The notes below the pieces were generated by a model. The model saw only the letters and a list, made by a program, of their open reading frames with translations. It was not told where the DNA came from and searched no databases. A DNA stretch of 64,000 bases. Source: Macellibacteroides fermentans. GTDB taxonomy: Bacteria > Bacteroidota > Bacteroidia > Bacteroidales > Tannerellaceae. Of the stretch, positions 1-47,717 are shown piece after piece (positions within the stretch are counted from its first letter, which is position 1; every line of letters begins with the position of its first letter). The stretch spans positions 1 to 64,000 of the forward strand of contig NZ_JACCCY010000006.1 of assembly GCF_013409575.1 (NCBI RefSeq). The letters run 5' to 3'. The position numbers were made by a program, and so were the translations under genes.

Positions 1-4
1 CTAT

Positions 5-20
5 TGAATTTTTTAGTGGT
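5..20 (-). promoter_or_regulatory. Start-codon leader motif upstream of the next tra gene
   Basis: On the minus strand these bases read ACCACTAAAAAATTCA, identical over 16 bases to 19229-19244, which lies 5 bases before the DUF1896 start codon. A close variant precedes topB. By analogy it should be the leader of the next transfer gene (traE), whose coding region lies to the left of the window. Bases 1-90 hold no gene. The identity is seen; the role is inference. Confidence 0.45.
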
Positions 21-90
21 GGCTATCGTCGTTAGCCGTAATCTCTTTCTTTCATCTTTTCTTCGTTTTACATTATTAATACTGTTCGCT

Positions 91-840
91 CTATGCGAAA
101 TCTTTGATATTAAAGCTGTCGGGAGCTTTCTTTCCGCTTCCGGTAGTTCCGGCTTCCTTATCTTTCAATTCATAAAAAGCCGAAAGGCTCTCTGCCATGA
201 GGTCGGAAACGATTTTCTTTGCATCGGGTTTACCTGAAACCACCTGTTCAAACATATCGGTCTGCCGTATATCCAACAGGGTATCGCCAGCCTTTTTCTT
301 TTGTTCGGGAGTGGCTTCGTCGGTTTTATTTACTGTGCGAACCATATTTCCCAAATCATCAAACTGAACTCCTGAAGCAAGTGCGGCTTGTGCCGTGCCT
401 TCGACTTCTTCTTCCTCGTTCTCCGGCTCATCTTCGTTGTCGTCCGCCCGTTCATATTCGAGCGGGACATCTATATCCATCGGCTCGTTATCTTCATCGG
501 GCGGAGTGTCGGAAAATGTTTCGTCCAATTCTTCCTGCGGTACTTCTGCCGACGGTTTTACCTCGTTAGGCGGAACAAATGTATTGGGATTTCCTGTCGG
601 ATTTTCAGTTTTTGGCGAGCTGGCAGCAAGTGGCTCCGATTTGGCAGTAAGTGGCTTCGCTGCACTTAAATCGAACCTACTTTTTCCTACAATATCCGAC
701 TTCAATCGCCCTGTTTCTTGGATTGAAGAACCTTGTCCGACAATGTTCTTTCTTCGCCTTTTGCCTACTTTCAGTCGCAGAAGATAAATTCCGACGAAAA
801 GGGCATACAGGATAACTACGGTTATAAATATCTTTTCCAT
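91..840 (-). CDS. traD: Conjugal transfer protein TraD-like
   Basis: A 249-residue protein with one hydrophobic segment at residues 4-22, then a basic stretch and a long acidic, Pro/Glu-rich low-complexity centre (about 95-150), ending in a better conserved C-terminal part. It is the fourth gene of a minus-strand set in the order ParA, DUF3408, DUF3408, this gene, which is the traA-traD order of Bacteroides conjugative transposons; the symbol rests on that order more than on a motif. The start lies 1 base after the stop of the preceding DUF3408 gene, so the two are probably coupled. Codons 60-73 are encoded by a copy of the 39-bp element found in front of three operons of this ICE (see 620-658), which is odd inside a coding region. 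Molecular function is unknown; it is probably a membrane-anchored accessory protein of the transfer apparatus. Confidence 0.75.
   Translation of the reverse strand: MEKIFITVVILYALFVGIYLLRLKVGKRRRKNIVGQGSSIQETGRLKSDIVGKSRFDLSAAKPLTAKSEPLAASSPKTENPTGNPNTFVPPNEVKPSAEVPQEELDETFSDTPPDEDNEPMDIDVPLEYERADDNEDEPENEEEEVEGTAQAALASGVQFDDLGNMVRTVNKTDEATPEQKKKAGDTLLDIRQTDMFEQVVSGKPDAKKIVSDLMAESLSAFYELKDKEAGTTGSGKKAPDSFNIKDFA
620..658 (-). repeat. Copy of the 39-bp ICE promoter element inside traD
   Basis: The minus strand matches the element at 2884-2924 at 34 of 39 positions by eye, including the paired GCCACTT blocks and GCCAAATCG. Unlike the other three copies it is inside a gene and no TAnnTTTG-like box was found at the usual 35-bp distance. 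It may be a decoy site, an internal promoter site or a chance insertion of the element. Confidence 0.6.
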
Positions 841-841
841 C

Positions 842-1291
842 TTACTTATTGGGGCTTAAATAGTCATCGTCGCAACTCTTTTTGTATAGTTCTGAAATAT
901 CGTCTTGAAAGGTTTCAAAATGGTGCTTCAACACATTGTCTATGTAGCTAAAAATGGAAACTTCATTGTCGCCAATGGTCTTCACAATCTTTGAAATCCG
1001 ATTGTGGTATTTTTGGCGGATAGCGACCTGTTTTCCGTTTCTTGTAGGTATGTTCGCATTTACAAGAAATCGTCTTTTATAGATGTCGGTAGATTTACGT
1101 TCTTCGCTTGGAATAACTATCATTTCTACTTCCTGTTCGCCCGGAACAACTTTTTCACTCTCGTTTTGTTTCACTTGTTTTCGGTGGCGTATTGCTTTGG
1201 GTATCATTACCGCAGCAAGCACCACGAGGCAACACACGATAAGACCTATCGTCATCGTGGTGTCATTGTAAAAAATCGGATTGGGTATCAT
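842..1291 (-). CDS. traC: DUF3408 conjugal transfer protein with membrane anchor (TraC-like)
   Basis: 149 residues. A hydrophobic segment at about residues 13-31 anchors it in the inner membrane; a charged linker follows, then a C-terminal DUF3408 domain (about 80-145) with the phrase RNGKQVAIRQKYHNRISKIV and FSYIDNVLKHHFE, which has ribbon-helix-helix-like character. It is a paralogue of the neighbouring gene at 1310-1774; the C-terminal 65 residues of the two align without gaps, while the N termini differ. The gap to the upstream DUF3408 gene is 18 bases. In the family these proteins are conserved in Bacteroides conjugative elements but have no defined biochemical role; DNA binding at the cell pole or membrane is inference. 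Confidence 0.8.
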   Translation of the reverse strand: MIPNPIFYNDTTMTIGLIVCCLVVLAAVMIPKAIRHRKQVKQNESEKVVPGEQEVEMIVIPSEERKSTDIYKRRFLVNANIPTRNGKQVAIRQKYHNRISKIVKTIGDNEVSIFSYIDNVLKHHFETFQDDISELYKKSCDDDYLSPNK

Positions 1292-1309
1292 ACATTTGTT
1301 GTTTATGGA

Positions 1310-1774
1310 TTAGAAAATTGATTCGTTATTTTTGTTGTACAGTTCCGTTATCTCATCCTGATAAGCGGCAAAATGTTGGGTCAGCACATTGTCAATGTAG
1401 CTGAACAAAGACACCTGATTTTTACTGATAACCTGAACTATCTTCGTTATCTTTTCGTGGTGTTCTTTGCGGATATAAACCGATTTTCCTGTACGTGCCG
1501 TAATCCCGACTTCCTGAATGAACAGGCTTTCGTAATCGGGCGATTTGCTTCGTTTGCGTTTCGGTTCTTCACGGGAAGTTTCTTCCTGAACGGTCGCAAC
1601 GGGTTGTACCGTTTCTTCGGATTCTGCTTCCTGTTCCTGCTTTTTCTCGTATTCGGGAACTAATGCTCTGGGTATGGAACTCGGATTGTTTCGTCGTTCC
1701 TTATTTTTGAATGAGGATATGACAAAACTTGCGTCTATCTCATTCAAATTCACTTCTTCTTTCTTTTTTGCCAT
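1310..1774 (-). CDS. traB: DUF3408 conjugal transfer protein (TraB-like)
   Basis: 154 residues, soluble, with a Glu/Gln-rich N-terminal half (residues 40-75), a basic patch KRKRSK near 78, and the DUF3408 domain at about 90-150 (ARTGKSVYIRKEHHEKITKI, FSYIDNVLTQHFAAYQ). It follows the ParA gene by 6 bases and precedes its membrane-anchored paralogue. ParA plus a small ribbon-helix-helix-like protein resembles a ParA/ParB-type partition pair, so a role in stabilising or positioning the excised element is possible (inference). Placement as TraB comes from gene order. Confidence 0.8.
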   Translation of the reverse strand: MAKKKEEVNLNEIDASFVISSFKNKERRNNPSSIPRALVPEYEKKQEQEAESEETVQPVATVQEETSREEPKRKRSKSPDYESLFIQEVGITARTGKSVYIRKEHHEKITKIVQVISKNQVSLFSYIDNVLTQHFAAYQDEITELYNKNNESIF

Positions 1775-1780
1775 GACTGA

Positions 1781-2533
1781 TTATTTTAGGGTTTCCAACA
1801 TTTCATTTATCAGGGCATCGAGGTTGCTACCCCTTACCAGTGCTTTGTCCGCAGGGAATAGCGTAGAACGAAACAGGGCTTTGTGGTTTACCGATTGTTC
1901 TCGACGAAATCGCTTGCTGTCGGGCAGGAATGTTTTGAAAAGCGGGAAACCCAGTTTGTCAATCACATCCTCATATACTTCGTAGAGTTCCGTTTTTTCA
2001 CGCCCATCGACAAGATTCCAAAGCAGGTACAATCCTTTGATTTTGGCTTTGCCCGGCGTAATCAGGGCATCATTGACCGTAATTACATATTGCAGGGTAC
2101 TTTCCAATACCAAGCGGTCGGCGCTTATGGGAGCTATGATATAGTCCATAAGTGAAAGCGTATGTACCACCGCAGGATTGTTGATAGTTCCCGGCAGGTC
2201 GAAAAATACGAAGTCGGGCTTCAATTCTTCGATTACGTCCTGTGCATCTTCCATAGCGTTTTCGGGACTGCTCTCGATAACTTCGTAAGCCTTTTTCCCC
2301 AACGCGGAAAATTGCTCGTAAGCCATGAGTTTGTAATGCTCATCGTCCATTGTCATTTGCATATCACGCTCACGCATTTCTGCAATCGAATGTTGCGGAA
2401 AGTCGCAGTCAATCACGGCTACATTGTAGCCACGTACATAGTGCAGGTAGGAAGCTACCAACACCGTAAGAGTTGTTTTTCCGGCTCCGCCCTTTTGGGT
2501 GCTGAAAGCCACATTCAAAATTTTCTTTTCCAT
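1781..2533 (-). CDS. traA: ParA-family ATPase (TraA)
   Basis: 250 residues, a ParA/MinD-type deviant Walker ATPase. The N terminus has the deviant Walker A motif QKGGAGKTT (about 13-21), followed by the switch region VIDCDFPQ (about 40) and FVFFDLPGT (about 108), which is the Walker B region. First gene of the tra operon of Bacteroides-type ICEs; ParA-type proteins of such elements are thought to act in partition or in organising transfer. Its predicted promoter lies far upstream at about 2841-2848, giving a leader of about 300 bases made largely of the 8-bp repeat array. No classical Shine-Dalgarno sequence precedes the start, as is usual in Bacteroidetes. Confidence 0.9.
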   Translation of the reverse strand: MEKKILNVAFSTQKGGAGKTTLTVLVASYLHYVRGYNVAVIDCDFPQHSIAEMRERDMQMTMDDEHYKLMAYEQFSALGKKAYEVIESSPENAMEDAQDVIEELKPDFVFFDLPGTINNPAVVHTLSLMDYIIAPISADRLVLESTLQYVITVNDALITPGKAKIKGLYLLWNLVDGREKTELYEVYEDVIDKLGFPLFKTFLPDSKRFRREQSVNHKALFRSTLFPADKALVRGSNLDALINEMLETLK

Positions 2534-2595
2534 TGTCTGAAATTTTTAATTAATAAACATTGTTTGTATCTCTGGTCGGCTATACAGCTATCCGC

Positions 2596-2835
2596 CTGTT
2601 TAGCCATTCGTTTAATCATTTGTCTATCCGTTTATCCGTCCGCACGTTCGAGCGTTTGGCTGTTTAGCTGTTTGTCCGTCCCTCTGTTTAACCGTTGGAA
2701 TGTTTAGCCGTTTAGCCAGCCGTTTGTTTGTTCAGCCATTTATTTGGCTCTATCTCCATACAGCCGACTGTATGTTTTTATATCCGTACAGCTATTCGTT
2801 GGGCTGTCCGTCTGTTTGTGCATACAGCCGTTTTT
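2596..2835. repeat. 240-bp degenerate array on a 4/8-bp grid (traA leader)
   Basis: The plus strand can be cut into exactly thirty 8-base blocks, most of type NNGTTTNN: CTGTTTAG, CCGTTTAT, CTGTTTGT, ATGTTTAG, CCGTTTAG and so on, with units also slipping by 4. The period is not a multiple of three and stop codons occur, so it is not a coding repeat. It begins where transcription of traA is predicted to start (about 2834) and would form most of its untranslated leader, read as an A- and C-rich RNA with units like CTAAACGG. The repeat is seen directly; the leader role is inference. Confidence 0.8.
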
Positions 2836-2840
2836 CTCTG

Positions 2841-2848
2841 CAAATAAA
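2841..2848 (-). promoter_or_regulatory. Probable traA promoter, -7 box
   Basis: The minus strand reads TTTATTTG, one mismatch from the Bacteroidetes -7 consensus TAnnTTTG. It lies exactly 35 bases downstream of the 39-bp element at 2884-2924, the same distance as at the mobC and DUF4099 promoters, which is the main reason for choosing it. Confidence 0.5.
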
Positions 2849-2883
2849 AACCTAAAATCTCGCCTGCACACTACTTTTTCACG

Positions 2884-2924
2884 AGGTGGCAGCAAGTGGC
2901 GTCGATTTGGCGGCAAGTGGCTTC
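2884..2924 (-). promoter_or_regulatory. ICE promoter element, copy upstream of traA
   Basis: Minus-strand direct-repeat-like element, GAAGCCACTT-GCCGCCAAATCGAC-GCCACTTGCTGCCACCT, with two GCCACTTGC blocks about 22 bases apart (two turns of the helix). Related copies lie at 9406-9446 and 15355-15395 in the orientation of the gene they precede, and a fourth at 620-658 in traD. It is probably the binding site of an activator common to the transfer operons (inference). Confidence 0.6.
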
Positions 2925-2957
2925 TCTCGCTGGAATACAGCACGTTACTTTAGACTG

Positions 2958-2965
2958 TAACTTTG
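2958..2965 (+). promoter_or_regulatory. mobA-mobB promoter, -7 box
   Basis: TAACTTTG fits the TAnnTTTG consensus exactly and would start a transcript near 2972, giving a leader of about 268 bases before mobA. It lies between the traA element and the mob genes, so transcription of tra and mob is divergent. Confidence 0.55.
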
Positions 2966-3024
2966 CAGCATGAAACGTCGGGAGGTATTCGACCGCCATT
3001 TTAGCTCGCTTGGCTCGCATTCAT

Positions 3025-3047
3025 ATCTGCCCCTGTTCAGGGCAGAT
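3025..3047 (+). terminator. Hairpin in the mobA leader (attenuator-like)
   Basis: ATCTGCCC and GGGCAGAT form a perfect 8-bp stem with a 7-base loop, followed by TTTATTTG. It lies in the leader of mobA, so it may be an attenuator, or a structural part of the transfer origin region. Confidence 0.4.
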
Positions 3048-3059
3048 TTTATTTGCGAC

Positions 3060-3239
3060 ATGGCAAATAGCAAGCTGTATTTTTTGCTGCACGGAAACCG
3101 TTTTGCTGCAAAAAATGCTTGCCCCACAAGGGGGACGCAAAACCTCCGAAGTCGGGTTGCTGATTGAATCATTTCGGGCAATGATTGTATGGCGTCGGAT
3201 GCCGGAACGACGGATTGTAACACTAAAAAAATCCGACGT
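3060..3239. other. Candidate origin of transfer (oriT) region
   Basis: Gene-free DNA immediately upstream of the relaxosome genes, where oriT lies in related elements. It contains short inverted repeats, notably GCCCCACAAGGGGG at about 3121-3134 and ATTTGCGACATGGCAAAT near 3051-3068. The motif GGGGGACG recurs just inside mobA as the palindrome GGGGGACGTCCCCC (3279-3292). No nick site could be assigned from sequence alone. Confidence 0.35.
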
Positions 3240-3677
3240 ATGAATGAAAATGTGAAGAACTCCTCAAAAAAGGGAAAAGGGGGACGTCCCCCCAAGAATA
3301 ACGCTGCCGCTTACCGATACTCGGTAAACTTCACGGCTACCGAACACGCCCGGTTTCTCTCCATGTTTGAGCAATCGGGAGTACAATCAATGGCACGTTT
3401 TATTGCTGCCCGTGTGTTCGGGGACGAGTTTCGGGTGGTAAAAATCGACCGTTCCGCTATGGAATACGTTACCAAACTCACTTCGCTTTACGCACAATTC
3501 CGTGCGGTGGGCGTGAATTACAACCAAGTTGTAAAGGAGTTGCACAGCAATTTTTCGGAGAAAAAAGCATTGGCTTTGCTCTATAAATTGGAAAAGGCAA
3601 CCGTGGAACTGGCAGAAACGGGTAAGAAAATTCTGGAATTATCGGAAGAATTTAAGGAAAAATGGTTGCAAAAATAA
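3240..3677 (+). CDS. mobA: Relaxosome accessory protein MobA (MobC-type)
   Basis: 145 residues from the ATG at 3240; an earlier start at 3189 would add 17 unlikely residues. The N terminus is basic and Lys/Gly-rich (KKGKGGRPPKNN), followed by a ribbon-helix-helix-like segment (YRYSVNFTATEHARFLSMFE) and a helical C-terminal half (FRAVGVNYNQVVKELH is the family signature of plasmid mobilisation accessory proteins). It should bind oriT and help the relaxase nick DNA. It overlaps mobB by 16 bases, so the two are cotranslated. In Bacteroides elements this protein is called MobA although it resembles MobC of other systems. Confidence 0.85.
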   Translation: MNENVKNSSKKGKGGRPPKNNAAAYRYSVNFTATEHARFLSMFEQSGVQSMARFIAARVFGDEFRVVKIDRSAMEYVTKLTSLYAQFRAVGVNYNQVVKELHSNFSEKKALALLYKLEKATVELAETGKKILELSEEFKEKWLQK

Positions 3678-4924
3678 ATATCGGAAGCAACCTGTATGGT
3701 GCGTTGGCATACAATCAGGAGAAGGTGGACGAAGGTCTGGGGAAGATATTGGGAAGCAATCTGGTCTTTGAACCTGCCGACGGCCAGATCAATGTTGCAG
3801 AATGTATGAATGATTTTATGCAGTTTGTTCCGGCTCACTTTCGTACCGAAAAACCCGTTTTTCATGTATCACTCAATCCACATCCTGATGACCGCCTGAC
3901 GGACGACCAACTGGCAGACATCGGACGGGAGTACATGGAGAAACTCGGATACGGCAATCAGCCTTATCTTATTTTCAAGCATGAAGACATCGGGCGGGAA
4001 CACATACATATCGTTTCGCTCCGGGTGGATAGTGAGGGAAAGAAAATTGACGGTTACAAGGAACATGAGCGAAGCAAAGAGATAACCGAACAGTTGGAAC
4101 GCAAGTATGACTTGCATCCTGCGGAGGGACAGAAACGCTCCGAAGGGTGGGAACTTTCGCCTGTCGATATTTCCAAAGGCGATTTGAAAAAGCAGATTGC
4201 TTCAGTTATCAAACCGCTGGCTTCGATGTACCATTTCCAGTCAATGGGCGAATACAAAGCCGTTCTTTCTCTGTATAATATAAATGTAGAGGAATTGAAA
4301 GGCGAAGCGAAAGGCAAACCATATCGGGGGTTGCTTTATTCGGCAATGGACAGCGAGGGTAACAAAGTCGGCAATCCGTTAAAATCTTCCATTTTCGGAA
4401 AGTCTGTCGGTTATGATGGACTTGAAAAACGTATGGAGAAATCGACCGAACGTATTAAAACCAAAAACCTGAAAGCACATACGTTAAAAGTGGTATCGGA
4501 AGCCAAACAGGGCAGCCAAAGTGAGAGCGAGTTCCGAGCGAAACTAAGGCAGCAGGGTATTGATGTTTTGTTCCGGCGGAATGACGAAGGACGTATTTAT
4601 GGGGCAACATTTATCGACCATACCACTCGTACCGTTTTGAACGGTTCTCGGTTGGGCAAAGATTATTCCGCTAATGTATTCAATGGTTTGTACGGTGGGA
4701 ATCAGCAGCAGATACAAGAGCCAATTCAAGATACCCGACTTTCCGATGTTTATAAAAATACCGAACAGTCAAGTAAGCACTATGAAAGTAGCCACAGTTC
4801 GGATAACGTAACAGGTGGGCTTTTCTCAATTCTTACTCCGGAGCCGGAGAATTATCCGAAAGATGATATGCCATTGCCACGCCGCAAGAAAAAGAAGAAA
4901 CGGAGGTATGGGAGGCAGATGTAG
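3662..4924 (+). CDS. mobB: Relaxase MobB (MobP-type mobilisation nuclease)
   Basis: 420 residues. The N-terminal 250 residues are a relaxase/mobilisation nuclease domain: a catalytic-tyrosine candidate in NLYGALAYNQEK (residues 10-20), and the metal-binding HxH motif in REHIHIVSLR (about 115). It nicks one strand at oriT, stays attached to the 5' end and is carried to the recipient by the coupling protein. The C-terminal third is low-complexity, with a basic tail (PRRKKKKKRR). It overlaps mobA and ends 63 bases before the convergent TPR gene; in CTnDOT-type elements mobC follows directly, whereas here the Gabija operon lies in between. Confidence 0.9.
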   Translation: MVAKINIGSNLYGALAYNQEKVDEGLGKILGSNLVFEPADGQINVAECMNDFMQFVPAHFRTEKPVFHVSLNPHPDDRLTDDQLADIGREYMEKLGYGNQPYLIFKHEDIGREHIHIVSLRVDSEGKKIDGYKEHERSKEITEQLERKYDLHPAEGQKRSEGWELSPVDISKGDLKKQIASVIKPLASMYHFQSMGEYKAVLSLYNINVEELKGEAKGKPYRGLLYSAMDSEGNKVGNPLKSSIFGKSVGYDGLEKRMEKSTERIKTKNLKAHTLKVVSEAKQGSQSESEFRAKLRQQGIDVLFRRNDEGRIYGATFIDHTTRTVLNGSRLGKDYSANVFNGLYGGNQQQIQEPIQDTRLSDVYKNTEQSSKHYESSHSSDNVTGGLFSILTPEPENYPKDDMPLPRRKKKKKRRYGRQM

Positions 4925-4987
4925 TCGAAAATTAAAATTGCCCCGAAAGTTCATGTGGAATTATCAGGGCAAAACTATGGTTCTTTC

Positions 4988-5821
4988 TTATTTTATAGAA
5001 CTGAAAAAGGCTTTAACTCGTTTGTCTGTTAATAAAGACTTATTGTTTTTCCAATATTCATATGCCTCTTGAATGGAACCCATAGGAATGCCTGCGTCAA
5101 AATACGGCTCGCCGGGAATCCTGAAAGGAAGAGGAGCAACGTGTTTACTCTTTGTGATTTCTTCGGGAACGAACTTATTTCGCTTTATTGCTTCCGCCAA
5201 AAGAGATTTCAATTTGCCATTCTCATTGTTTATGATTGCAAGCAGTAATCTTCCATAAACAAATTCAATACCCCAATCATCCTTATGCTTTCTCAATAAT
5301 TTGGCAGCTGTTTCATAGTCTTTCAGAGCGAAATAACATTCCAATAACAAATATCTCACGCCTTGATGGTCATCTTCATTATAACCAAGTATTTCGGAAT
5401 AGAGCAGTATTGCTTCCTCATATTGTTTTCTGTCCTGATGCTCCATTCCTAAAATGTGGCAAGACCGTAAAAATGGACGATTATCCAAGTTACTCCAACG
5501 TAGCTTATGTTTGGATTGCTTCAATTCTTTTGGGAAACACGATTTTCCGATAAGGTATGATTTTTCTGCTGTCAAGAAACTTTCAAAAGACTTTTTCTGA
5601 TTCTTGAATGCAATGCTTAAATGATTGTAAGCGTCGATATGATATGGGTGCTTCTTGATAATTTTCTTGAAAATCTGCTCTGCCTCCACATCATTATAGT
5701 CTAACAACTCAACACCCTCATAATATTCATTATACGTTTCCTCATTGTCAATGGAGGGCGGAAATACAAATTCCCATTCGCTTTCGTGGAAATTGACTAC
5801 CTTTGGTTTTTGCGCTACCAT
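4988..5821 (-). CDS. TPR protein, third gene of the Gabija operon
   Basis: 277 residues with helical repeats typical of TPR/ST7-like proteins: residues about 30-100 (AEQIFKKIIKKHPYHIDAYNHLS) and 110-210 (RPFLRSCHILGMEHQDRKQY, NEDDHQGVRYLLLECYFALK). No catalytic motif, signal peptide or membrane segment is seen. It starts 19 bases after the UvrD-like gene and is on the same strand, so it is probably cotranscribed with gajA and gajB. Known Gabija systems have two genes; a third TPR gene could be a regulator, an adaptor, or a passenger. Function not assigned. Confidence 0.7.
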   Translation of the reverse strand: MVAQKPKVVNFHESEWEFVFPPSIDNEETYNEYYEGVELLDYNDVEAEQIFKKIIKKHPYHIDAYNHLSIAFKNQKKSFESFLTAEKSYLIGKSCFPKELKQSKHKLRWSNLDNRPFLRSCHILGMEHQDRKQYEEAILLYSEILGYNEDDHQGVRYLLLECYFALKDYETAAKLLRKHKDDWGIEFVYGRLLLAIINNENGKLKSLLAEAIKRNKFVPEEITKSKHVAPLPFRIPGEPYFDAGIPMGSIQEAYEYWKNNKSLLTDKRVKAFFSSIK

Positions 5822-5840
5822 ATTTGTTTTTATTTATATT

Positions 5841-7526
5841 TCAATTACGAACCAACTTATTTTCCCAAGCATTTTTGTTATCATCATTGGGAACTGCAAT
5901 AACTAAGATTTTGCTTGGTCGTGTCATTCCAACGTATGCGATTCTTAATTCTTCGCTTGCCGAAATTGATATATTTTTATTGAGTAGTGTTTTATATGCA
6001 CTACCAATGCCTTTAGTCTTTAATATTAAAAGAACAGCTTCAAATGTTTCTCCTTTCACACTATGCACCGTGCCATATCTGTAATTTTTCTCAATAATCT
6101 GTTTGTCTTCATTTAAAAATAATTGGGGAAACGAAAGGCGTAAGCCGTCTTTATGAACACGTAATTCAAAACCACAATTATTTTCTTTTAGAGCCTTGTT
6201 TGCTGCATCAACCCACTCTCCAATAGAAATATTTGTTCGAGGAAGCAGATTTATAAAAGCATGGATTTGGCTTTTAAAGGTAACAAATCCCATTTGAGCA
6301 ATTGCATCATTAATATCATCCTCTGAACAATAAGATAAATTGCTCAAGGTTTTCAATAAGATTCGCTCCAATATTTTAAAGCCGTCTTTGAAACGCCCGT
6401 TATCATATAGGAATTTTCCTCTTGCAAATTCTCGCGTATGACTATCTACCCATACATTAGTACCAAAAGTAATTTCAGGAATGCCAAGAATTTCATTAAC
6501 GATGCTTTTACTTCGATAAATTATCGCGGTAGATTCTTTAGACACATTGATTCCCTGTTGCTGGCATTCATCAATAAAGTCAGATACTATCTGAGGCAAA
6601 TTGCTGTTATATGTAATTACTTTAGGTCGATGAGCAAATTCCCGGACTTGCTCGTTTACAGAAACAGAAGCATCACTCAAAGAAGAAATTCCAAAAGTGA
6701 AACCACAGATATTTTGCGAACTTCTTCGGTTTTCATTCAGTATAATGGAGTTTTCCCATTCGTCATATTTTTGAGTGAGTAATTCCGGTCTTGCGTCATT
6801 CCATTCAAAAATAGCTTGGTCTGGATCGCCGACAAGCATTATTTCACTCAATCCGTTTTCAATGAGTATATCAATTATTTTCATCTGAATATCAGATGTG
6901 TCTTGGGCTTCATCTACTATCAAATAAGGAAATCTGACGGCAATAGCTTTGGCGATTTGAGGATATTTTTCAAGGATTTTCATCGCAAAAAAGTTTGCAT
7001 CATTTTGTGTGGCATACCCCGCTTTATTATAGCGCTTCTTTGCTCCTGTAATATATTTGTTTTGCTGCCAATTAGCATTCATTTTTGTTGCTTGAATGGC
7101 ATACATACTACCATCAATAGCGTAACTTATATTGTCAAATAGAGTGCTACTAAAGTCTTTTCCACTCCAAGTCCCATGAGGTTCACCAACTAAAATAGGC
7201 CTTCCTTTACATCCTAAGATTAAATGCCCAAAGGGAAGGAAAATGTATTTGTTTACAAAGCTGTCGATAGTCCCAAGAAAATGGGGATATGCGATTTTAC
7301 TAATACTAAATTTCTCGTTGCACTTTTTCTCTATTTCTTGCCATGCAACATTTGTAAAAGAAAGCACGGCTATTCCCTCATGTCTCTTTTTCCAATCATG
7401 GATTAATCGAGCTAATCTTGCACCTACACAATAAGTTTTTCCACTACCCGGACAGGCTCTCACAACAAATTTTCCTGATTTGTTGAATACAATTTCTCGT
7501 TGACTATCTGATAGCGTTCTAAACAT
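5841..7526 (-). CDS. gajB: GajB-like UvrD/Rep superfamily 1 helicase (Gabija)
   Basis: 561 residues. Superfamily 1 helicase motifs in order: Walker A CPGSGKTY (about 25-32), motif Ia AVLSFTNVAW, motif II VDEAQDTSD (about 205), motif III VGDPDQAIFEW (about 235), motif V YGTVHSVKGETF (about 490) and motif VI AYVGMTRP (about 530). It follows an OLD-type nuclease gene by 4 bases; that pair and order are the definition of the Gabija anti-phage system, where GajB binds and assists GajA as nucleic-acid-sensing helicase/ATPase. The ORF is somewhat longer than the commonest GajB (about 500). A stand-alone UvrD/OLD pair of another type (for example retron- or Septu-related) is less likely. Confidence 0.85.
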   Translation of the reverse strand: MFRTLSDSQREIVFNKSGKFVVRACPGSGKTYCVGARLARLIHDWKKRHEGIAVLSFTNVAWQEIEKKCNEKFSISKIAYPHFLGTIDSFVNKYIFLPFGHLILGCKGRPILVGEPHGTWSGKDFSSTLFDNISYAIDGSMYAIQATKMNANWQQNKYITGAKKRYNKAGYATQNDANFFAMKILEKYPQIAKAIAVRFPYLIVDEAQDTSDIQMKIIDILIENGLSEIMLVGDPDQAIFEWNDARPELLTQKYDEWENSIILNENRRSSQNICGFTFGISSLSDASVSVNEQVREFAHRPKVITYNSNLPQIVSDFIDECQQQGINVSKESTAIIYRSKSIVNEILGIPEITFGTNVWVDSHTREFARGKFLYDNGRFKDGFKILERILLKTLSNLSYCSEDDINDAIAQMGFVTFKSQIHAFINLLPRTNISIGEWVDAANKALKENNCGFELRVHKDGLRLSFPQLFLNEDKQIIEKNYRYGTVHSVKGETFEAVLLILKTKGIGSAYKTLLNKNISISASEELRIAYVGMTRPSKILVIAVPNDDNKNAWENKLVRN

Positions 7527-7530
7527 TCGA

Positions 7531-9303
7531 TTATTCTCCTTTCGTAGCGTATTTTATAGCATTTTGGAGATATGTAGGCACAACAAACGCATTTCTCGCA
7601 TTTTCGTCCGAAGCCAATTTCACAGCCAATCTATGTGCTAATTCTGATTTTGCCTTATTTGAGATAACTTTCTCTAAGAAATTTGTCGCATGAATTTTTA
7701 CGTCAGCATTTTCAATAATTCTACCCGCTGCGACAGGATGCATTTCCTTGAATATTTCTATGAGAATATCTTTGTTTCCTGCAATGAAAAGTTCAAATTC
7801 AAATGTTTGTTCTGCCAAAAACACTTTTAGATTCTTTCTTTCAAGTTCACTGGCTACCTTTGCTCTTGAAGCAATTTCGTCCGTTTCTTTATCTCTATCA
7901 TCATCGGTAATCAAAGAGCATCTTGTTTTCAAATTTTTGTCATTATCATCATTGTTAAACAAATTAGCAAAATGAGAGAATGCGACACCATTTAAATTGA
8001 CTAATTCAACTCCAGCACTTTCGATATCGTACTTTCCATTCTCTTCCATAATTTTGCTAAAAATCGGTAGAAGTAATGATTCCGAAATACCCTCAACTAA
8101 AATCACCCCATTAGAAAAGAATAGTTGCGACTTTGTTACATCTAAGAATTTATGCAAGTATTTTCGGTTATCTCCTGACAAGCCTGATTTGTCAAGAGAT
8201 AAGGCAGACACTTTATTATCCTGATTCTGCAAAACCACAACGGACTTCAAATCTGACTTTGCTGTGATTGTCGGAGAGTGTGATGATATGAATATTTGAA
8301 ATCCTTGCTCCGTATCAAGTTTATTCAGGTATTTAAAGAAAAGATTTTGTAGTTGCGGGTGTAGATGGGCTTCGGGTTCTTCTATAAGTAGGGCTGCATA
8401 ACTTTCCTTGTTGAGTTCTTTTCGTTGTTTCAAATCCCCTAAAACAGTAGCTGTATAAATTAGGTTGTTATATCCAAGTCCGTTTTGATATAGTTCGAAA
8501 TGCTTCTGCTTTGATGAATCGCCTTCAAGCAATTCATCAGTGTAGATAGGCATTTGAATTTTTAGATTATCTACTAATCGGTTAAAATCAAATGGGAGAA
8601 ACAAAATTTCAACTTGCTGTTGTTTGCTCGCAAAGCTCGTTTCTCTCAAATGTTCGTTTATTTTTTCTTTCCCTTTGCCAATGTGTTGTGTCCAATCAGT
8701 ATCACTATCAACTGCTTCACGAACCTTTTTTGCAATCTCTTTTTTCTTTTCTTTATCGGTTTCAGCGTTCGGATCAATTTGAATATTGGCATATAATTGC
8801 CCTAAACGGTTTCCCCTGATTGGGCGCAAATGATTTTCTGCATCTCGTAATGCGTCCAAATGAACATGATACAAAAGAAATAAGATCTCTGGAGCGATTG
8901 CCTGTCCTTCATTTGTTCCTCCCCATACCTTATACCTGATTCTTTCCTCTTCATCAAGATAATAGCGGAAATGTAATTGCAAATCCTGTGTCCCGTCTTC
9001 TTGAACACTCAATAAATCGTTGAACCAACCCGCTTCAGCTGGGTCTTCTATTTTAAAATGCAAGTGAAATTCTATATCGTTTAGGGTATCACTTATTTCG
9101 GTTTTTTCTATATGAAAGTCAGGATACGAGATATAAATGTCCCTTTTCTGATTACCGTAACTTAAACAGATGCGTAAAGCGTCAATAATCGCCGTTTTAC
9201 TGGAGTTGTTTTCTCCGATAAGTACGTTTAGCCCTTTGCTAAAGTGAAGAGCTAAATCGGCAATTCCCCTAAAGTTTTTTATAATGAACTTTTCTATATA
9301 CAT
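7531..9303 (-). CDS. gajA: GajA-like OLD-family nuclease with ABC ATPase and TOPRIM (Gabija)
   Basis: 590 residues, close to typical GajA. ATPase part: Walker A region IGENNSSKTAI (about 30-40), ABC-type signature region and Walker B LLIEEPEAHLHPQ (about 312-324), H-loop ISSHSPTI (about 345). TOPRIM part: VILVEGISES (about 399, the Glu) and ITDDDRDKE (about 466, the DxD), metal ligands for DNA nicking. In Gabija this protein is a sequence-directed nicking enzyme held off by nucleotides and released when phage replication depletes them. Promoter at 9358-9365; first gene of a three-gene minus-strand operon set between mobB and mobC. Confidence 0.87.
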   Translation of the reverse strand: MYIEKFIIKNFRGIADLALHFSKGLNVLIGENNSSKTAIIDALRICLSYGNQKRDIYISYPDFHIEKTEISDTLNDIEFHLHFKIEDPAEAGWFNDLLSVQEDGTQDLQLHFRYYLDEEERIRYKVWGGTNEGQAIAPEILFLLYHVHLDALRDAENHLRPIRGNRLGQLYANIQIDPNAETDKEKKKEIAKKVREAVDSDTDWTQHIGKGKEKINEHLRETSFASKQQQVEILFLPFDFNRLVDNLKIQMPIYTDELLEGDSSKQKHFELYQNGLGYNNLIYTATVLGDLKQRKELNKESYAALLIEEPEAHLHPQLQNLFFKYLNKLDTEQGFQIFISSHSPTITAKSDLKSVVVLQNQDNKVSALSLDKSGLSGDNRKYLHKFLDVTKSQLFFSNGVILVEGISESLLLPIFSKIMEENGKYDIESAGVELVNLNGVAFSHFANLFNNDDNDKNLKTRCSLITDDDRDKETDEIASRAKVASELERKNLKVFLAEQTFEFELFIAGNKDILIEIFKEMHPVAAGRIIENADVKIHATNFLEKVISNKAKSELAHRLAVKLASDENARNAFVVPTYLQNAIKYATKGE

Positions 9304-9357
9304 AGTTTTATTGATGCTTATAAGTTGTTGATTATTCGTTAAACTTTAACACATCTG

Positions 9358-9365
9358 CAAAGATA
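9358..9365 (-). promoter_or_regulatory. gajA promoter, -7 box
   Basis: The minus strand reads TATCTTTG, a perfect TAnnTTTG match, followed by CAG at the usual distance of a start site near 9351, leaving a leader of about 48 bases. The cargo thus has its own promoter, independent of the ICE backbone, and is divergent from mobC. Confidence 0.6.
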
Positions 9366-9405
9366 AGGTATTTTATAGTATTCGGGGTTAATTTTCATAT
9401 AGACA

Positions 9406-9446
9406 AGTGCCACAAGCAGCCAAACCGAAGCCACATACTGCCACCT
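9406..9446 (+). promoter_or_regulatory. ICE promoter element, copy upstream of mobC
   Basis: Plus-strand copy of the element, with GCCACAAGCAGCCAAACCGA followed by AGCCACATACTGCCACCT. It ends exactly 35 bases before TACTTTCG (9482-9489), a near match to the Bacteroidetes -7 box, which in turn lies 28 bases before the mobC start codon. The same geometry is seen at traA and at DUF4099. Confidence 0.6.
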
Positions 9447-9481
9447 AAAGCAAAACTGCATAAAACCTCACATATCCCCTA

Positions 9482-9489
9482 TACTTTCG
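9482..9489 (+). promoter_or_regulatory. Probable mobC promoter, -7 box
   Basis: TACTTTCG, one mismatch from TAnnTTTG. A start site near 9496 would give a leader of about 22 bases before the mobC ATG. The weak box fits a promoter that needs an activator bound at 9406-9446 (inference). Confidence 0.45.
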
Positions 9490-9517
9490 CTTCTTAAACA
9501 ATTTAATTTTTAAGAAA

Positions 9518-11527
9518 ATGCAACAAGAAGACGATTTAAGAGGACTTGCTAAAGTCATGGAGTTTATGCGGGCAATCAGTATTTTGTTCGTGGTTATGAA
9601 CATATACTGGTTTTGCTATTATGCCATTCGAGAATGGGGAATCAACATCGGAGTAGTAGATAAGATACTCCTGAACTTCGACCGCACCGCTGGACTTTTC
9701 GGCTGTATCATTTACACCAAAATATTCGCCGTTGTTTTCCTTGCCCTGTCGTGCTTTGGAACAAAGGGCGTGAAAGAGGAAAAAATCACTTGGCCGAAAA
9801 TTTATGTTTTTCTGACAATCGGTTTTATCCTGTTCTTTATGAACTGGTGGATACTCGACCTGCCATTACCCGCAGCAGCAATAACGGGGTTTTATGTTCT
9901 TACAATGACAACAGGTTATCTGTTCCTGTTGGTTGGAGGATTATGGATGAGCCGATTGCTGAAGAACAATCTTATGGACGACGTTTTCAATATGGAGAAC
10001 GAATCGTTTATGCAGGAAACACGGCTATTACAGAGCGAATATTCCGTGAATTTGCCAACTAAGTTTTGGTATAAAAAGAAGCAATGGAAAGGTTGGATAA
10101 ACGTAGTAAATCCGTTTAGAGCGAGCATTGTATTGGGAACGCCGGGTAGTGGTAAATCATACGCCGTTGTCAATCAATACATAAAACAACAGATTGAAAA
10201 AGGATTTTCAATGTACGTGTATGATTTCAAATTCCCAGACCTTTCCACAATAGCCTACAATCACTTGCTTAATAATCAATTAGGCTATAAAAAAGTGCCG
10301 ACTTTCTTTGTGATTAACTTCGATGATCCGAGCCATTCGCACCGTTGCAACCCTATCAATCCGTCTTTCATGGAAGACATATCGGACGCATACGAATCGA
10401 GTTATACCATCATGCTCAATCTCAATAAAACGTGGGTGCAGAAACAGGGCGACTTCTTTGTAGAATCGCCGATTATCCTATTTGCTTCGATTATTTGGTA
10501 TCTGCGTATATATAAAGAAGGGAAATTTTGTACATTCCCACATGCGATTGAATTCCTAAATAAAAGATACGAAGATATTTTCCCGATTTTGACTTCCTAT
10601 CCCGAACTCGAAAACTATCTGAGTCCATTTATGGACGCATGGCTCGGTGGTGCAGCCGACCAATTAATGGGACAGATAGCGAGTGCTAAAATTCCGCTTT
10701 CGAGAATGATTTCGCCACAACTGTATTGGATAATGAGCGGGGACGAATTTACGCTTGATATAAACAATCCTGATGACCCGAAAGTGTTGGTGGTCGGTAA
10801 CAATCCCGATAGACAAAATATTTACGGTGCAGCTCTCGGACTTTATAATTCACGCATTGTGAAACTTATAAACAAGAAAGGACAGCTAAAAAGTTCGGTC
10901 GTGATTGACGAGCTACCGACCATTTATTTCAAAGGCTTGGATAATCTGATTGCGACCGCCCGAAGCAATAAAGTAGCAGTATTATTGGGTTTTCAGGATT
11001 TCTCACAATTAACAAGGGATTACGGCGATAAAGAAGCCAAAGTCGTAATGAATACTGTTGGCAATATTTTCAGCGGTCAGGTGGTTGGAGATACTGCCAA
11101 AACGCTTTCCGACCGCTTCGGGAAAGTCTTACAGAAACGTCAGTCAATGACTATCAACCGCAACGATAAATCAACCTCTATCAGTACCCAAATGGATAGT
11201 CTTATTCCTGCTTCCAAAATCTCCAATCTGACACAGGGTATGTTCGTCGGTGCGATTGCCGATAATTTTGACGAGCGTATTGAGCAGAAGATTTTCCATT
11301 GCGAAATAGTGGTGGATAATGCGAAAGTCGCTGCCGAAACGAAGGCGTATCAATCCATTCCTGTGATTACCGACTTTACGGACGAAAACGGAGTTAATCG
11401 AATGAAAGATATGATTAAGGAAAATTACGACCGAATCAAAGCCGAAACCAAACAGATTGTTGCAGAGGAATTACAACGTATTAAAGACGACCCTGCATTG
11501 GTTCATTTGTTGCAGCAAGGGGAATAA
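9518..11527 (+). CDS. mobC: Type IV coupling protein MobC (YWFCY/TraG-like)
   Basis: 669 residues. The N terminus has about four membrane segments (residues about 18-38, 66-82, 92-110 and 118-145) and contains the YWFCY motif that names the Bacteroidetes coupling-protein N-terminal domain. The cytoplasmic ATPase follows: Walker A GTPGSGKSY (about 207), Walker B VVIDELPTIYF (about 459) and the TARSNKVAVLLGFQDFSQL region of VirD4/TraG proteins. A hexamer of this kind brings the relaxase-DNA complex to the mating channel and pumps DNA. In related ICEs it follows mobB directly; here a 4.4-kb Gabija insert separates them and mobC has its own promoter. Confidence 0.92.
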   Translation: MQQEDDLRGLAKVMEFMRAISILFVVMNIYWFCYYAIREWGINIGVVDKILLNFDRTAGLFGCIIYTKIFAVVFLALSCFGTKGVKEEKITWPKIYVFLTIGFILFFMNWWILDLPLPAAAITGFYVLTMTTGYLFLLVGGLWMSRLLKNNLMDDVFNMENESFMQETRLLQSEYSVNLPTKFWYKKKQWKGWINVVNPFRASIVLGTPGSGKSYAVVNQYIKQQIEKGFSMYVYDFKFPDLSTIAYNHLLNNQLGYKKVPTFFVINFDDPSHSHRCNPINPSFMEDISDAYESSYTIMLNLNKTWVQKQGDFFVESPIILFASIIWYLRIYKEGKFCTFPHAIEFLNKRYEDIFPILTSYPELENYLSPFMDAWLGGAADQLMGQIASAKIPLSRMISPQLYWIMSGDEFTLDINNPDDPKVLVVGNNPDRQNIYGAALGLYNSRIVKLINKKGQLKSSVVIDELPTIYFKGLDNLIATARSNKVAVLLGFQDFSQLTRDYGDKEAKVVMNTVGNIFSGQVVGDTAKTLSDRFGKVLQKRQSMTINRNDKSTSISTQMDSLIPASKISNLTQGMFVGAIADNFDERIEQKIFHCEIVVDNAKVAAETKAYQSIPVITDFTDENGVNRMKDMIKENYDRIKAETKQIVAEELQRIKDDPALVHLLQQGE

Positions 11528-11566
11528 AATCAGGTCTTAACTTTCTTATAAGGCGGAATAAAATCG

Positions 11567-11574
11567 TACCTTTG
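11567..11574 (+). promoter_or_regulatory. Promoter of the CoiA/DUF6035-like gene, -7 box
   Basis: TACCTTTG matches TAnnTTTG and is followed by CAGCATT, so transcription should begin near 11580. The only start codon nearby in frame is the TTG at 11597, so this promoter helps choose that start. Confidence 0.55.
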
Positions 11575-11596
11575 CAGCATTCAGATATTATATATA

Positions 11597-13450
11597 TTGA
11601 ACAATTTTAAAGATATACGAACAGTTGAAGATATTCTCAATTTAGAAACGGGCGAGAATATCAGTGCTTCCGCATTGCTTGGCAATATGGATAGCGATGA
11701 TATTGTACTGCTAAGAAGGAAACTGCGTACTGCTAACAGAGAAGGAAAACCTATACTGGTTTGTGCCGAATGCTCAACCAAGTTAGAATTGAGATGCAAT
11801 AAATTGAGTCGCGAAAGTAGAGGGAAAGATTTCTATTTCTTCAAGCATTATAAAGACGTTAATGAATGTTCCATTAAAACAAACTCTCGATTGCCTGTGG
11901 GTGTATTATTGGCTCGAAAATATGAAAATGTAAAAGAGAGCATTCCACATATAGATTTAAAGAATAGATTAGGATATATCATTGAACAATTTCATTCACC
12001 AAAACAAATCAGCATTGATGATAAATTTTACTTTGACAAGTCAGGTAATGGAGAAAGACGAAAACCAGACGTTTACGCTATTATTGATGATAAAGAATAT
12101 GCATTTGAGATACAGTTGAACACAACGTTTCTTAGTGTAATTGAAGAAAGGGAGGTATTTTATGAAAGAAATGATGTTTCTATTCTATGGATTTTCAAGC
12201 ATTTTCCTTTAGAAGATGGGCTTCAACGATTAACCCAAAAAGACATATACGTTCCTAATAGACTAAATGCTTTTGTGTTGGACGACGAAATGCTCGACTT
12301 ATCTATTAAAGAAAAGGAATTACATTTAAGAGTTTACTATAAGACTTTTCATGTTGACGGGTGGGAAATTTACAGCCAGTGGGATACAGATGTTGCTACA
12401 ATCAAGGATTTAAAATATGCTGAAAATTTCAAGCCCTTTTTCTATGATTCTTTTGCAGATAAAGAATATGCAAAACAAGAGTTGAAACAAAAAGAAGAAG
12501 AGTATAGATTAGAACAACGAAGAATTCAACGTATTCAACGACAGGAAGAGGAGCGATTGGCTGAGCAGGAACGAATAAAGCAACTTAAAGTATCAAGATG
12601 TAAAAGACTAATTAATTTTATACAATCTGATATTGACTGTTTAGAAGAAAAGCAATCTGAATTATTGATAGATAAAAAACAATTAGAGAATAAAGTTGAC
12701 GAGCTTCAAATCAAGAATGAAGAAATATCTCAAATACAAAATGATATAATTGAAGTTGTGGAGAAAATGTACAACTATCTAAAAAAATATAACAATAAAG
12801 CATGGAGATATGACTCTAATCCCTTATATCGACATTGTGATATTTCTTCTATCAAAGACAAATACGAAGATCAAATAAGAGGATTCGAGAATGCCAAAAA
12901 TGAAATTCAAACCAAATTAAGAACAGAAATTATTCCAAAAAAAACATTTATAAATGAATTTTTAACCTGCGATATTGGTGGAATAATATACTCTATAATT
13001 ACGCCTGATAAAAAATATGAATGGCTTGTGGAAAAATTCCCAGGAGAAATTAAAGTGATAGGAACAAAGGATTTAGGTACGATATTCGCGGATAGTTGCA
13101 TTAAAGATATTCCTAATGTTTCTTTTTTTCGTTGGAGCATTGGAATTAAAAATAACCAAAATACATTCTTAATGGATATGTCTTCAAGAAAAGCAGACAC
13201 CATTTCTAAAGAAACGGAATTGAACAAACAACTTGATAAAATATCACACGACGAAAACAATTGTATTGCCGAATTAAAAAATGACACTATCAAATTATTA
13301 AACGACGAACAGAGCAAAAATACAGCTTTGATGAAAGAATGTAAAGATAAGGCAAATACAACTATGAACGCTCTTTTGGACAGTTCGGCAAGGACAGAGA
13401 TTCTTATAAACAGGCTAAATATATGTCAGCAATACATGTATAACTTCTAA
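11597..13450 (+). CDS. CoiA/DUF6035-like nuclease with coiled coil
   Basis: 617 residues from a TTG at 11597. The next in-frame ATG (about 11687) would remove 30 residues that look structured, and the promoter at 11567 fits the TTG. Residues about 50-95 form a Cys/His zinc-finger-like segment (CAEC, FFKHYKD, EC). Residues about 150-180 hold KPDVYAIIDDKEYAFEIQLNT, the D...EIQ core of a PD-(D/E)XK nuclease of the type seen in CoiA and DUF6035 proteins. A long coiled coil follows (about 290-420) and a C-terminal helical region. CoiA acts in processing of incoming DNA in competence; homologues on mobile elements are of unknown role. AT-rich, own promoter, between mobC and an IS: it looks like cargo, possibly defence. 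Family call moderate, role unproven. Confidence 0.6.
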   Translation: MNNFKDIRTVEDILNLETGENISASALLGNMDSDDIVLLRRKLRTANREGKPILVCAECSTKLELRCNKLSRESRGKDFYFFKHYKDVNECSIKTNSRLPVGVLLARKYENVKESIPHIDLKNRLGYIIEQFHSPKQISIDDKFYFDKSGNGERRKPDVYAIIDDKEYAFEIQLNTTFLSVIEEREVFYERNDVSILWIFKHFPLEDGLQRLTQKDIYVPNRLNAFVLDDEMLDLSIKEKELHLRVYYKTFHVDGWEIYSQWDTDVATIKDLKYAENFKPFFYDSFADKEYAKQELKQKEEEYRLEQRRIQRIQRQEEERLAEQERIKQLKVSRCKRLINFIQSDIDCLEEKQSELLIDKKQLENKVDELQIKNEEISQIQNDIIEVVEKMYNYLKKYNNKAWRYDSNPLYRHCDISSIKDKYEDQIRGFENAKNEIQTKLRTEIIPKKTFINEFLTCDIGGIIYSIITPDKKYEWLVEKFPGEIKVIGTKDLGTIFADSCIKDIPNVSFFRWSIGIKNNQNTFLMDMSSRKADTISKETELNKQLDKISHDENNCIAELKNDTIKLLNDEQSKNTALMKECKDKANTTMNALLDSSARTEILINRLNICQQYMYNF

Positions 13451-47357: not shown

Positions 47358-47717
47358 ATAAATTCCTGTATTGTTGAAATTTATGCAGGTGTAGAATAGT
47401 TATTTTCTGTTGTATTTTGATACCTTGGGAAATATATTTCGTTATGGTTATTGCACGTTACTCTTCTTTTGAAGTATTATTTACTACATAATCGACCCTT
47501 TCTGGTTAACTTATCTTTGCGTTTAAAGTGTTAAGAGTTAATAATGATGAATATTGTATATAATAATTAAAAAATTAAAGATAATCAATTTATATTTTAT
47601 AGATTTGTGACGATATATATATATACGTGCACGCTAACTTATTTATCACTGGAAAATGCAATATAAAGCACAGACCTTTTATCAATGAATTTATGTATTA
47701 TTAATCCCTATTTAAAA
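47358..47717 (+). promoter_or_regulatory. AT-rich intergenic region with two promoter-like boxes
   Basis: TATCTTTG at 47512-47519 and TAGATTTG at 47600-47607 fit the -7 consensus; the second matches the setting of the promoter at 46651. The rest is AT-rich without a gene. Confidence 0.4.

Follow-up and report, generated by a model that had tools for sequence, protein, structure and literature searches.

A phase-locked array of four-base words between traA and the mob genes of a Macellibacteroides fermentans element: a candidate binding-site array for the DUF3408 protein TraB

Introduction

The delta/omega system of pSM19035 has a ribbon-helix-helix (RHH) ParB and 7–10 consecutive 7-bp repeats, of which at least four, without gaps, are needed for omega to activate its ParA, and these repeats overlap promoters (excerpts of PMC9499535). 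According to the same excerpts, the N-terminus of RHH-ParBs contacts ParA, and RHH-ParBs repress their own promoters (PMC9499535). In TP228 parFGH, the parH site consists of degenerate tetramer boxes with AT-rich spacers and has an operator function (excerpts of PMC7308502). The Par-like proteins VirC1 and VirC2 of Agrobacterium serve DNA transfer rather than partition, and VirC1 binds overdrive (excerpts of PMC4285021 and PMC8406263). The met boxes of MetJ are, by the title of the work cited for them, a tandem 8-bp palindrome.

The 64,000-nucleotide stretch of Macellibacteroides fermentans DNA analysed here (the window) begins within the promoter-proximal part of a minus-strand tra operon, with divergent mob genes on the plus strand and a periodic array between traA and mobA (Table 1). 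TraB and TraC both score above the PF11888 gathering cut-off of 29.9. A Gabija defence pair on the minus strand (window 5841–9303; GajB 5841–7526, GajA 7531–9303) separates the relaxase gene from the coupling-protein gene (9518–11527). One copy of the sequence GGCAGCAAGTGGC, with a one-base variant after it, is found between the mob and tra genes (about 2885–2925), and a second copy with its variant lies inside the traD-like gene (about 620–660). Earlier work on CTnDOT is said to have dealt with the mob-tra intergenic region (Xis2d). Searches of the open-access literature on DUF3408 and on traA repeats or partition in Bacteroides elements, a literature that mostly leaves subscription papers outside, turned up no account of an array like this one.

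Table 1. Features of the tra-mob region, in window coordinates.
Feature	Position	Strand	Remarks
Array, 69 four-base words in one phase	2562..2837	-	proposed parS/overdrive-like TraB binding array
TTTATTTGC, -7-like promoter motif	2840..2848	-	directly upstream of array; predicted tra promoter
GTAACTTTG, resembles TAnnTTTG; divergent mob side	2957..2965	+	
traA, ParA/MinD-type ATPase, 250 aa	1781..2533	-	PF01656, 49.1 bits (cut-off 25.4)
traB, DUF3408 protein, 154 aa, proposed array binder	1310..1774	-	PF11888, E 1.3e-28, 100.5 bits
TraB C-terminal domain, residues 85-154	1313..1522	-	predicted extended segment, then two helices; mean pLDDT 87.4
Putative DNA-contact segment of TraB, residues 97-102 (KSVYIR)	1469..1486	-	contact role predicted
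traC, second DUF3408 protein	842..1291	-	PF11888, 85.4 bits
traD-like gene	91..840	-	DUF4122, 26.5 bits, just below cut-off 27
mobA, MobC_2-like relaxosome accessory protein	3189..3677	+	
mobB, relaxase	3662..4924	+	PF03432

Results

Extent and composition of the array

An earlier note on this DNA described a 240-bp array at 2596–2835 on a strict 4/8-bp grid. The periodicity is real: the self-match of 2596–2835 at every multiple-of-four lag from 4 to 40 was reached by none of 1000 dinucleotide shuffles, with the excess present at both period 4 and period 8. The contrast between lags from 4 to 24 divisible by four and the remaining lags is 0.22 for the array and 0.076 for the runner-up 160-bp stretch in the 64-kb window. 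At lag 4 alone, a 240-bp stretch at 47557 reaches 0.428 vs. 0.419 for the array; for lags 8, 12, and 16 no stretch of the window surpasses it. The grid thus stands as first described but its length does not, the phase-locked stretch being longer (about 2562–2837, 276 bases, 69 words). To call the blocks mostly NNGTTTNN was also an overstatement, as AAAC accounts for only 15 of the 69 words. The most frequent words on the minus strand are AAAC (15), GGCT (7), and GGAC, AGCC, and GGAT (4 each). All 15 AAAC words (GTTT on the plus strand) share one 4-bp phase and 12 of them fall in one 8-bp phase, and purine-N-N-pyrimidine is the common rule (61/69 words). Tandem Repeats Finder returned no row at the array position, and the near-identical copies of an ordinary tandem repeat or microsatellite were not found there by that program. 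Protein coding on the sense strand was ruled out by 3 to 7 stops in each of the three frames. A block inside the array, ATAGCTGTACGGATATAAAAACATACA (window about 2769–2795, minus strand), shows strong conservation in an alignment of 12 sequences; in the consensus fold, the end of this block is paired with the start of the array.

No more than about ten bases separate the start of the array from the promoter-like motif TTTATTTGC, which resembles the Bacteroides -7 promoter element. A tra transcription start near 2833–2837 is plausible from the position of this motif, and the array probably lies, as had been proposed, in the predicted traA leader, with the motif just before it. The TAnnTTTG-like GTAACTTTG is assigned to the divergent mob side. 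A promoter-like NTTTGC motif precedes 83 of 101 arrays, a raw count without shuffle control to which no weight is given.

The grid in related transfer systems

Loci with TraA homologues were gathered in several scans (60 loci in one; matches in 31 of 123 and 24 of 393 genomes, under differing E-value limits), and more stretches were fetched. With duplicates merged, 169 loci yielded 132 distinct 400-bp upstream regions, L048, L050, L086, and L163 being excluded for having less than 400 bp upstream; a shorter minimum gave the 133 regions of the period scan. The 4-bp grid beat all 100 shuffles of the same region in 108 of the 132 regions, across TraA identities from 100 to 31%. By TraA identity, the test was passed in 19/19 regions at 80–100%, 34/36 at 60–80%, 35/36 at 50–60%, 7/14 at 45–50%, and 13/27 at 30–45%. 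It was failed in 24 of the 132 regions, several of which have DUF3408 after traA and several of which carry an 8-bp period (L087, L138, L147, and L149).

The maximum of 937 control windows, taken at or downstream of the traA start, was exceeded in 92 of the 132 regions. When periods 3–12 were scanned in the 133 regions, with 461 control windows of 450 bp setting the scale and a threshold of more than 4 standard deviations, period 4 was best in 69 and period 8 in 49; no other period was a strong best in any of the 133, and 15 were without a strong best. Both control sets are mostly coding DNA, and the regions' own shuffles are the fairer control.

DUF3408 follows traA in all but 11 listed regions, and among these 11 are several with DUF3408 ahead of traA. 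At eight loci (L140–L143, L160–L162, and L108), the interval from traA to the mob side contains a DUF3408 gene. The grid, with a contrast of 0.148–0.176, stands just before that gene in L141, L143, and L162 or across its start in L142, and the contrast is only 0.055–0.090 in L140, L108, L160, and L161. Among 76 plasmid records with a TraA match, five were examined (three from Cytophagia, one Bacteroides plasmid, and one RteC-bearing element in plasmid form), all with divergent mob genes and ParA. The best period of the mob-ParA intergenic region was 4 or 8 in 5/5, although these regions of 511–853 bp were scaled by 450-bp control windows, which somewhat favours the plasmids. DUF3408 is annotated after ParA in 4/5 plasmids, and in L186 the next gene is annotated only as hypothetical. 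In an RteC-bearing element, L179 (5713–6753), the start annotated for the ParA gene is 288 bp upstream of the one given by the alignment, and part of the array region is therefore annotated as coding.

One lone DUF3408 gene of the M. fermentans genome, beside mob genes and without ParA, showed nothing above the control maximum in its surroundings, where the best contrast (0.085) lies 1.5 kb off inside another ORF. This single case fits an array that goes with ParA and DUF3408 together. It also bears on the view that the array is a plain operator, bound by TraB only for autoregulation of tra and without ParA-dependent positioning. Such a role is in keeping with the start of the array so near the promoter-like motif, with the four loci in which DUF3408 comes first and the array stands before it, and with the repression of their own promoters by RHH-ParBs (excerpts of PMC9499535). 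Nevertheless, 69 words would seem far beyond the need of an operator, and the array accompanies ParA and DUF3408 as a pair, with none seen near the lone DUF3408 gene, so a purely regulatory array is considered unlikely.

Replacement of words on a constant grid

The words differ completely between lineages while the grid is kept. In relatives whose TraA is 89–96% identical, GATT/AATC words replace AAAC/GGCT, and remoter relatives use AAGT/ACTC, TGAA/AGCA, GATA, AATG, and others. The length variability suspected earlier is confirmed across relatives and consists mostly of whole words: a comparison of 64 pairs of similar regions gave 86 distinct indel contexts located 30–300 bp before the start codon, of which 56 were multiples of four, vs. 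7 of 29 elsewhere. Strict orthogonality, with its own words for each resident element, is not supported, as the pairs L009/L011, L013/L016, and L015/L017, each assigned to one genome by contig prefix and title, are all of the AAAC/GGCT type.

The words are also self-complementary. The column profile matched its own reverse complement with a mean of 0.77 over 95 arrays, compared with 0.44 between lineages. For 41 lineages (TraA below 75% identity), the mean was 0.771 vs. 0.606 for relabelled profiles and was equalled by 0/200 null means, with only 6 of the 41 single lineages above their own 90% null.

Upstream of traA in L164 and L090, near-perfect tandem forms occur, built from 8-bp units of the AGGTATCG type and from a four-word, 16-bp unit; these forms are perhaps young expansions. 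Tandems of this kind, and length shifts of mostly whole words, are what a neutral tetranucleotide microsatellite upheld by slippage would produce. Such an origin is hardly credible, however, for an array whose words are replaced while the grid persists, whose word use is self-complementary, whose position is the same in distant elements, and whose word set covaries with TraB across an unswapped traA, as set out below.

Covariation of the word set with TraB

Two vocabularies were compared at 21 loci with 18 different traA (TraA at least 80% identical, identical copies left out), the two labels being assigned by the analyst from the words present. The TraB segment reads SVYIR in 14/14 AAAC/GGCT arrays and LVSIR in 7/7 GATT/AATC arrays, so that residues S98 and Y100 differ between the two. 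The TraB columns separating the kinds are 86–105, 119, 123, and the last few residues, with none in the first 85. The traA gene lies between the array and traB, yet its tree mixes the kinds, with 5 changes, a number as low as that in 113 of 500 label shuffles. L005 and L008 share 94% of their traA DNA and 95% of the TraB N-terminus, but their C-terminal domains are 57% identical and their vocabularies differ. TraC does not track the words in the 21-locus comparison; it is missing among the matches in L025 and L031.

In 89 of the 95 arrays with a contrast of at least 0.10, vocabulary correlated with identity of the TraB segment when TraA was held constant (partial r 0.34, 0/500 permutations) and not with the TraB N-terminus (partial r 0.01, 186/500 permutations), although the 3916 pairs behind these values are not independent. 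By the outward-residue rule for RHH strands, three residues of the segment would face outward. Pairs with TraA at least 80% identical have a vocabulary similarity of 0.96 (n=151) when these putative outward residues are the same and 0.46 (n=91) otherwise, and at 55–65% TraA identity the two groups hardly differ (0.47 vs. 0.43). L137, with TraA only 47% identical and P-Y-R in the segment, uses AGCC/AAAC words, and L077 has S-Y-R as in the window element but other words. Per lineage, the association of AAAC with Tyr/Arg in the segment is weak (p 0.013), with exceptions such as L077. A simple three-residue code was rejected, being broken by L077 and with hardly any effect at 55–65% TraA identity. 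Judged from these comparisons, the segment matters, though the three residues fall short of a full code.

Among 286 pairs with TraA above 75%, the TraB N-terminus follows TraA with r 0.77 and the C-terminal domain with r 0.38; over all 3828 pairs, both halves follow TraA (partial r 0.56 for the N-terminus and 0.64 for the C-terminal domain). In L005, L018, L021, and L023, the TraB C-terminal domain resembles the TraC domain of other elements, as if domains had been exchanged between the two DUF3408 genes.

Self-complementary words, whole-word length changes, and a vocabulary that tracks the TraB segment together suggest that the array is read by TraB as double-stranded DNA. Of the roles floated in the earlier note, a landing zone for a protein is accordingly the best supported by sequence covariation and self-complementarity. 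Curvature by phasing appears improbable, as 4 and 8 bp would be out of phase with the helical turn. The same mismatch bears on the idea that the array bends DNA or binds a nucleoid protein of the host, which periodic DNA without a strict consensus might otherwise suggest; the vocabulary moreover follows a protein encoded by the element itself, and this idea is regarded as very improbable.

Folding of the leader as RNA

Alternatively, the array might be transcribed as the 5′ end of the tra message and act as RNA, by forming hairpins, by attenuation, or by being recognized by a small RNA or an RNA-binding protein. The promoter-like motif directly upstream would place it there; the leader folds better than shuffles (z -4.6, 0/100), z is below -2 in 27 of 43 lineages, and 12 sequences (the window and 11 relatives) share a conserved 5′ hairpin, with a double change in 6 of 28 consensus pairs. 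When the words are kept and their order is shuffled, however, the mean z is -0.92 and only 7 of 43 lineages remain below -2. The antisense strand folds about equally well (average -37.6 vs. -38.8 kcal/mol), the covariation term of the 12-sequence consensus fold is unfavourable (+1.55), an Rfam match is absent in window 1–12000, and an RNA function would leave the link between vocabulary and one TraB segment unaccounted for. An RNA role in place of DNA binding is therefore quite improbable, while an additional one is possible. The unstructured landing zone for ribosomes that had been proposed is at odds with the folding of the leader, and the evidence favours double-stranded DNA bound by TraB.

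Predicted fold of TraB

DSSP assigned no strand in either the full-length or the domain model of TraB, which could be expected if the ribbon forms only between two chains. Full-length TraB gave seven matches against the PDB, none of them significant, including AtaR (Z 4.3, Foldseek E 9.4) and Reg576 (Z 3.5, Foldseek E 7.1). These two, like ORF56 and NikR, are RHH proteins, though matches at such levels may carry little weight. The domain model gave one unrelated PDB match and neither AtaR nor Reg576, and the viral structure library held no significant match to TraB. A profile search of PDB sequences placed an unrelated receptor first and ORF56 at E 0.73, behind unrelated proteins. Profile-profile comparison with NikR-like RHH_1 domains (from a thin alignment) and with MobA revealed no similarity, and a search for RHH_3 in 30 relatives found none. 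The models weakly suggest that the C-terminal domain of TraB is probably RHH-like. Because the DSSP strand is absent from both models and L077 breaks a simple residue code, trust in the reading of the array by TraB, and in the broader centromere proposal discussed below, is slightly lowered.

Discussion

A proposed role for the array

We consider the array to be a double-stranded DNA binding-site array for the DUF3408 protein TraB, parS- or overdrive-like, working with TraA and also autoregulatory, with a probability of roughly two in three. Binding of TraB to the array is suggested by their covariation. The TraB C-terminal domain would insert a beta-strand into the DNA, and TraB dimers would line up next to one another, each on an 8-bp site of two 4-bp half-sites; a met box is likewise two 4-bp halves. 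The phase could not slip, because the dimers would adjoin on these sites. The N-terminus of TraB may contact the ParA-type ATPase TraA, and the TraB-array complex would mark the DNA of the element beside the mob genes in the manner of a plasmid centromere (parS) or of overdrive and VirC. TraA may then position or couple the marked DNA for transfer, or keep the excised form. Coating by TraB just after the tra promoter would repress traA-traB.

A broader proposal, to which we give slightly less than even odds, is that of a re-spellable conjugation centromere across Bacteroidota, in which DUF3408 would be the ParB, and the TraB C-terminal domain and the array would be exchanged together while TraA and the TraB N-terminus stay constant. 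Such an exchange would move a specificity cassette with its array on the far side of traA, and the residues of one beta-strand would set the word set.

These proposals offer a role for DUF3408, a family of unknown function that is a regular neighbour of traA, and turn an odd leader into a testable problem of DNA recognition with dozens of natural variants. Such elements spread genes between gut bacteria, and the way in which their DNA comes to be positioned for transfer is a fundamental issue. If true, the joint exchange of the array and its reading domain across a conserved traA would be a natural experiment in protein-DNA coevolution.

Comparison with known systems

The earlier view that a period not divisible by three has no standard explanation in a leader was too strong, since known RHH partition proteins mark DNA at contiguous short repeats, as in pSM19035 and TP228. 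As far as the excerpts on pSM19035 go, that system resembles the present one in its small ParA, its short contiguous repeats at the promoter of the operon, the use of either orientation, and its many adjacent binding units. It differs in that the words here are degenerate, 4/8 bp long, 69 in number, and drawn from lineage-specific sets, that the partner is a DUF3408 protein with an RHH fold only putative, and that the array belongs to a conjugative element, where it lies between the mob operon and the tra operon. TP228, from the excerpts on it, shares the degenerate tetramer boxes and the ParA-type ATPase with a DNA-binding partner; unlike there, no AT-rich spacer rule was seen in the array here.

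The VirC1/VirC2-overdrive system, as excerpted, is alike in combining a ParA-like ATPase, a small DNA-binding partner, and a cis site, which here is beside the mob genes. Unlike VirC1, TraA falls under the curated cut-offs (PF07015, 18.9 bits against 24; NF010423, 21.1 bits against 313), and the array is far longer than overdrive. MetJ, to judge by the title of the work on its boxes, shares the side-by-side 8-bp sites, but it is a chromosomal metabolic repressor with few boxes and no ParA.

Two features of RHH-type ParABS (type Ib) are found at the locus: a small ParA ATPase in the operon (TraA, 250 aa, PF01656, without an extra N-terminal domain as judged from its length) and a short contiguous repeat array next to the operon. 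From its sequence, the array system may thus be viewed as a variant akin to the RHH-ParA systems, without a claim to membership among them.
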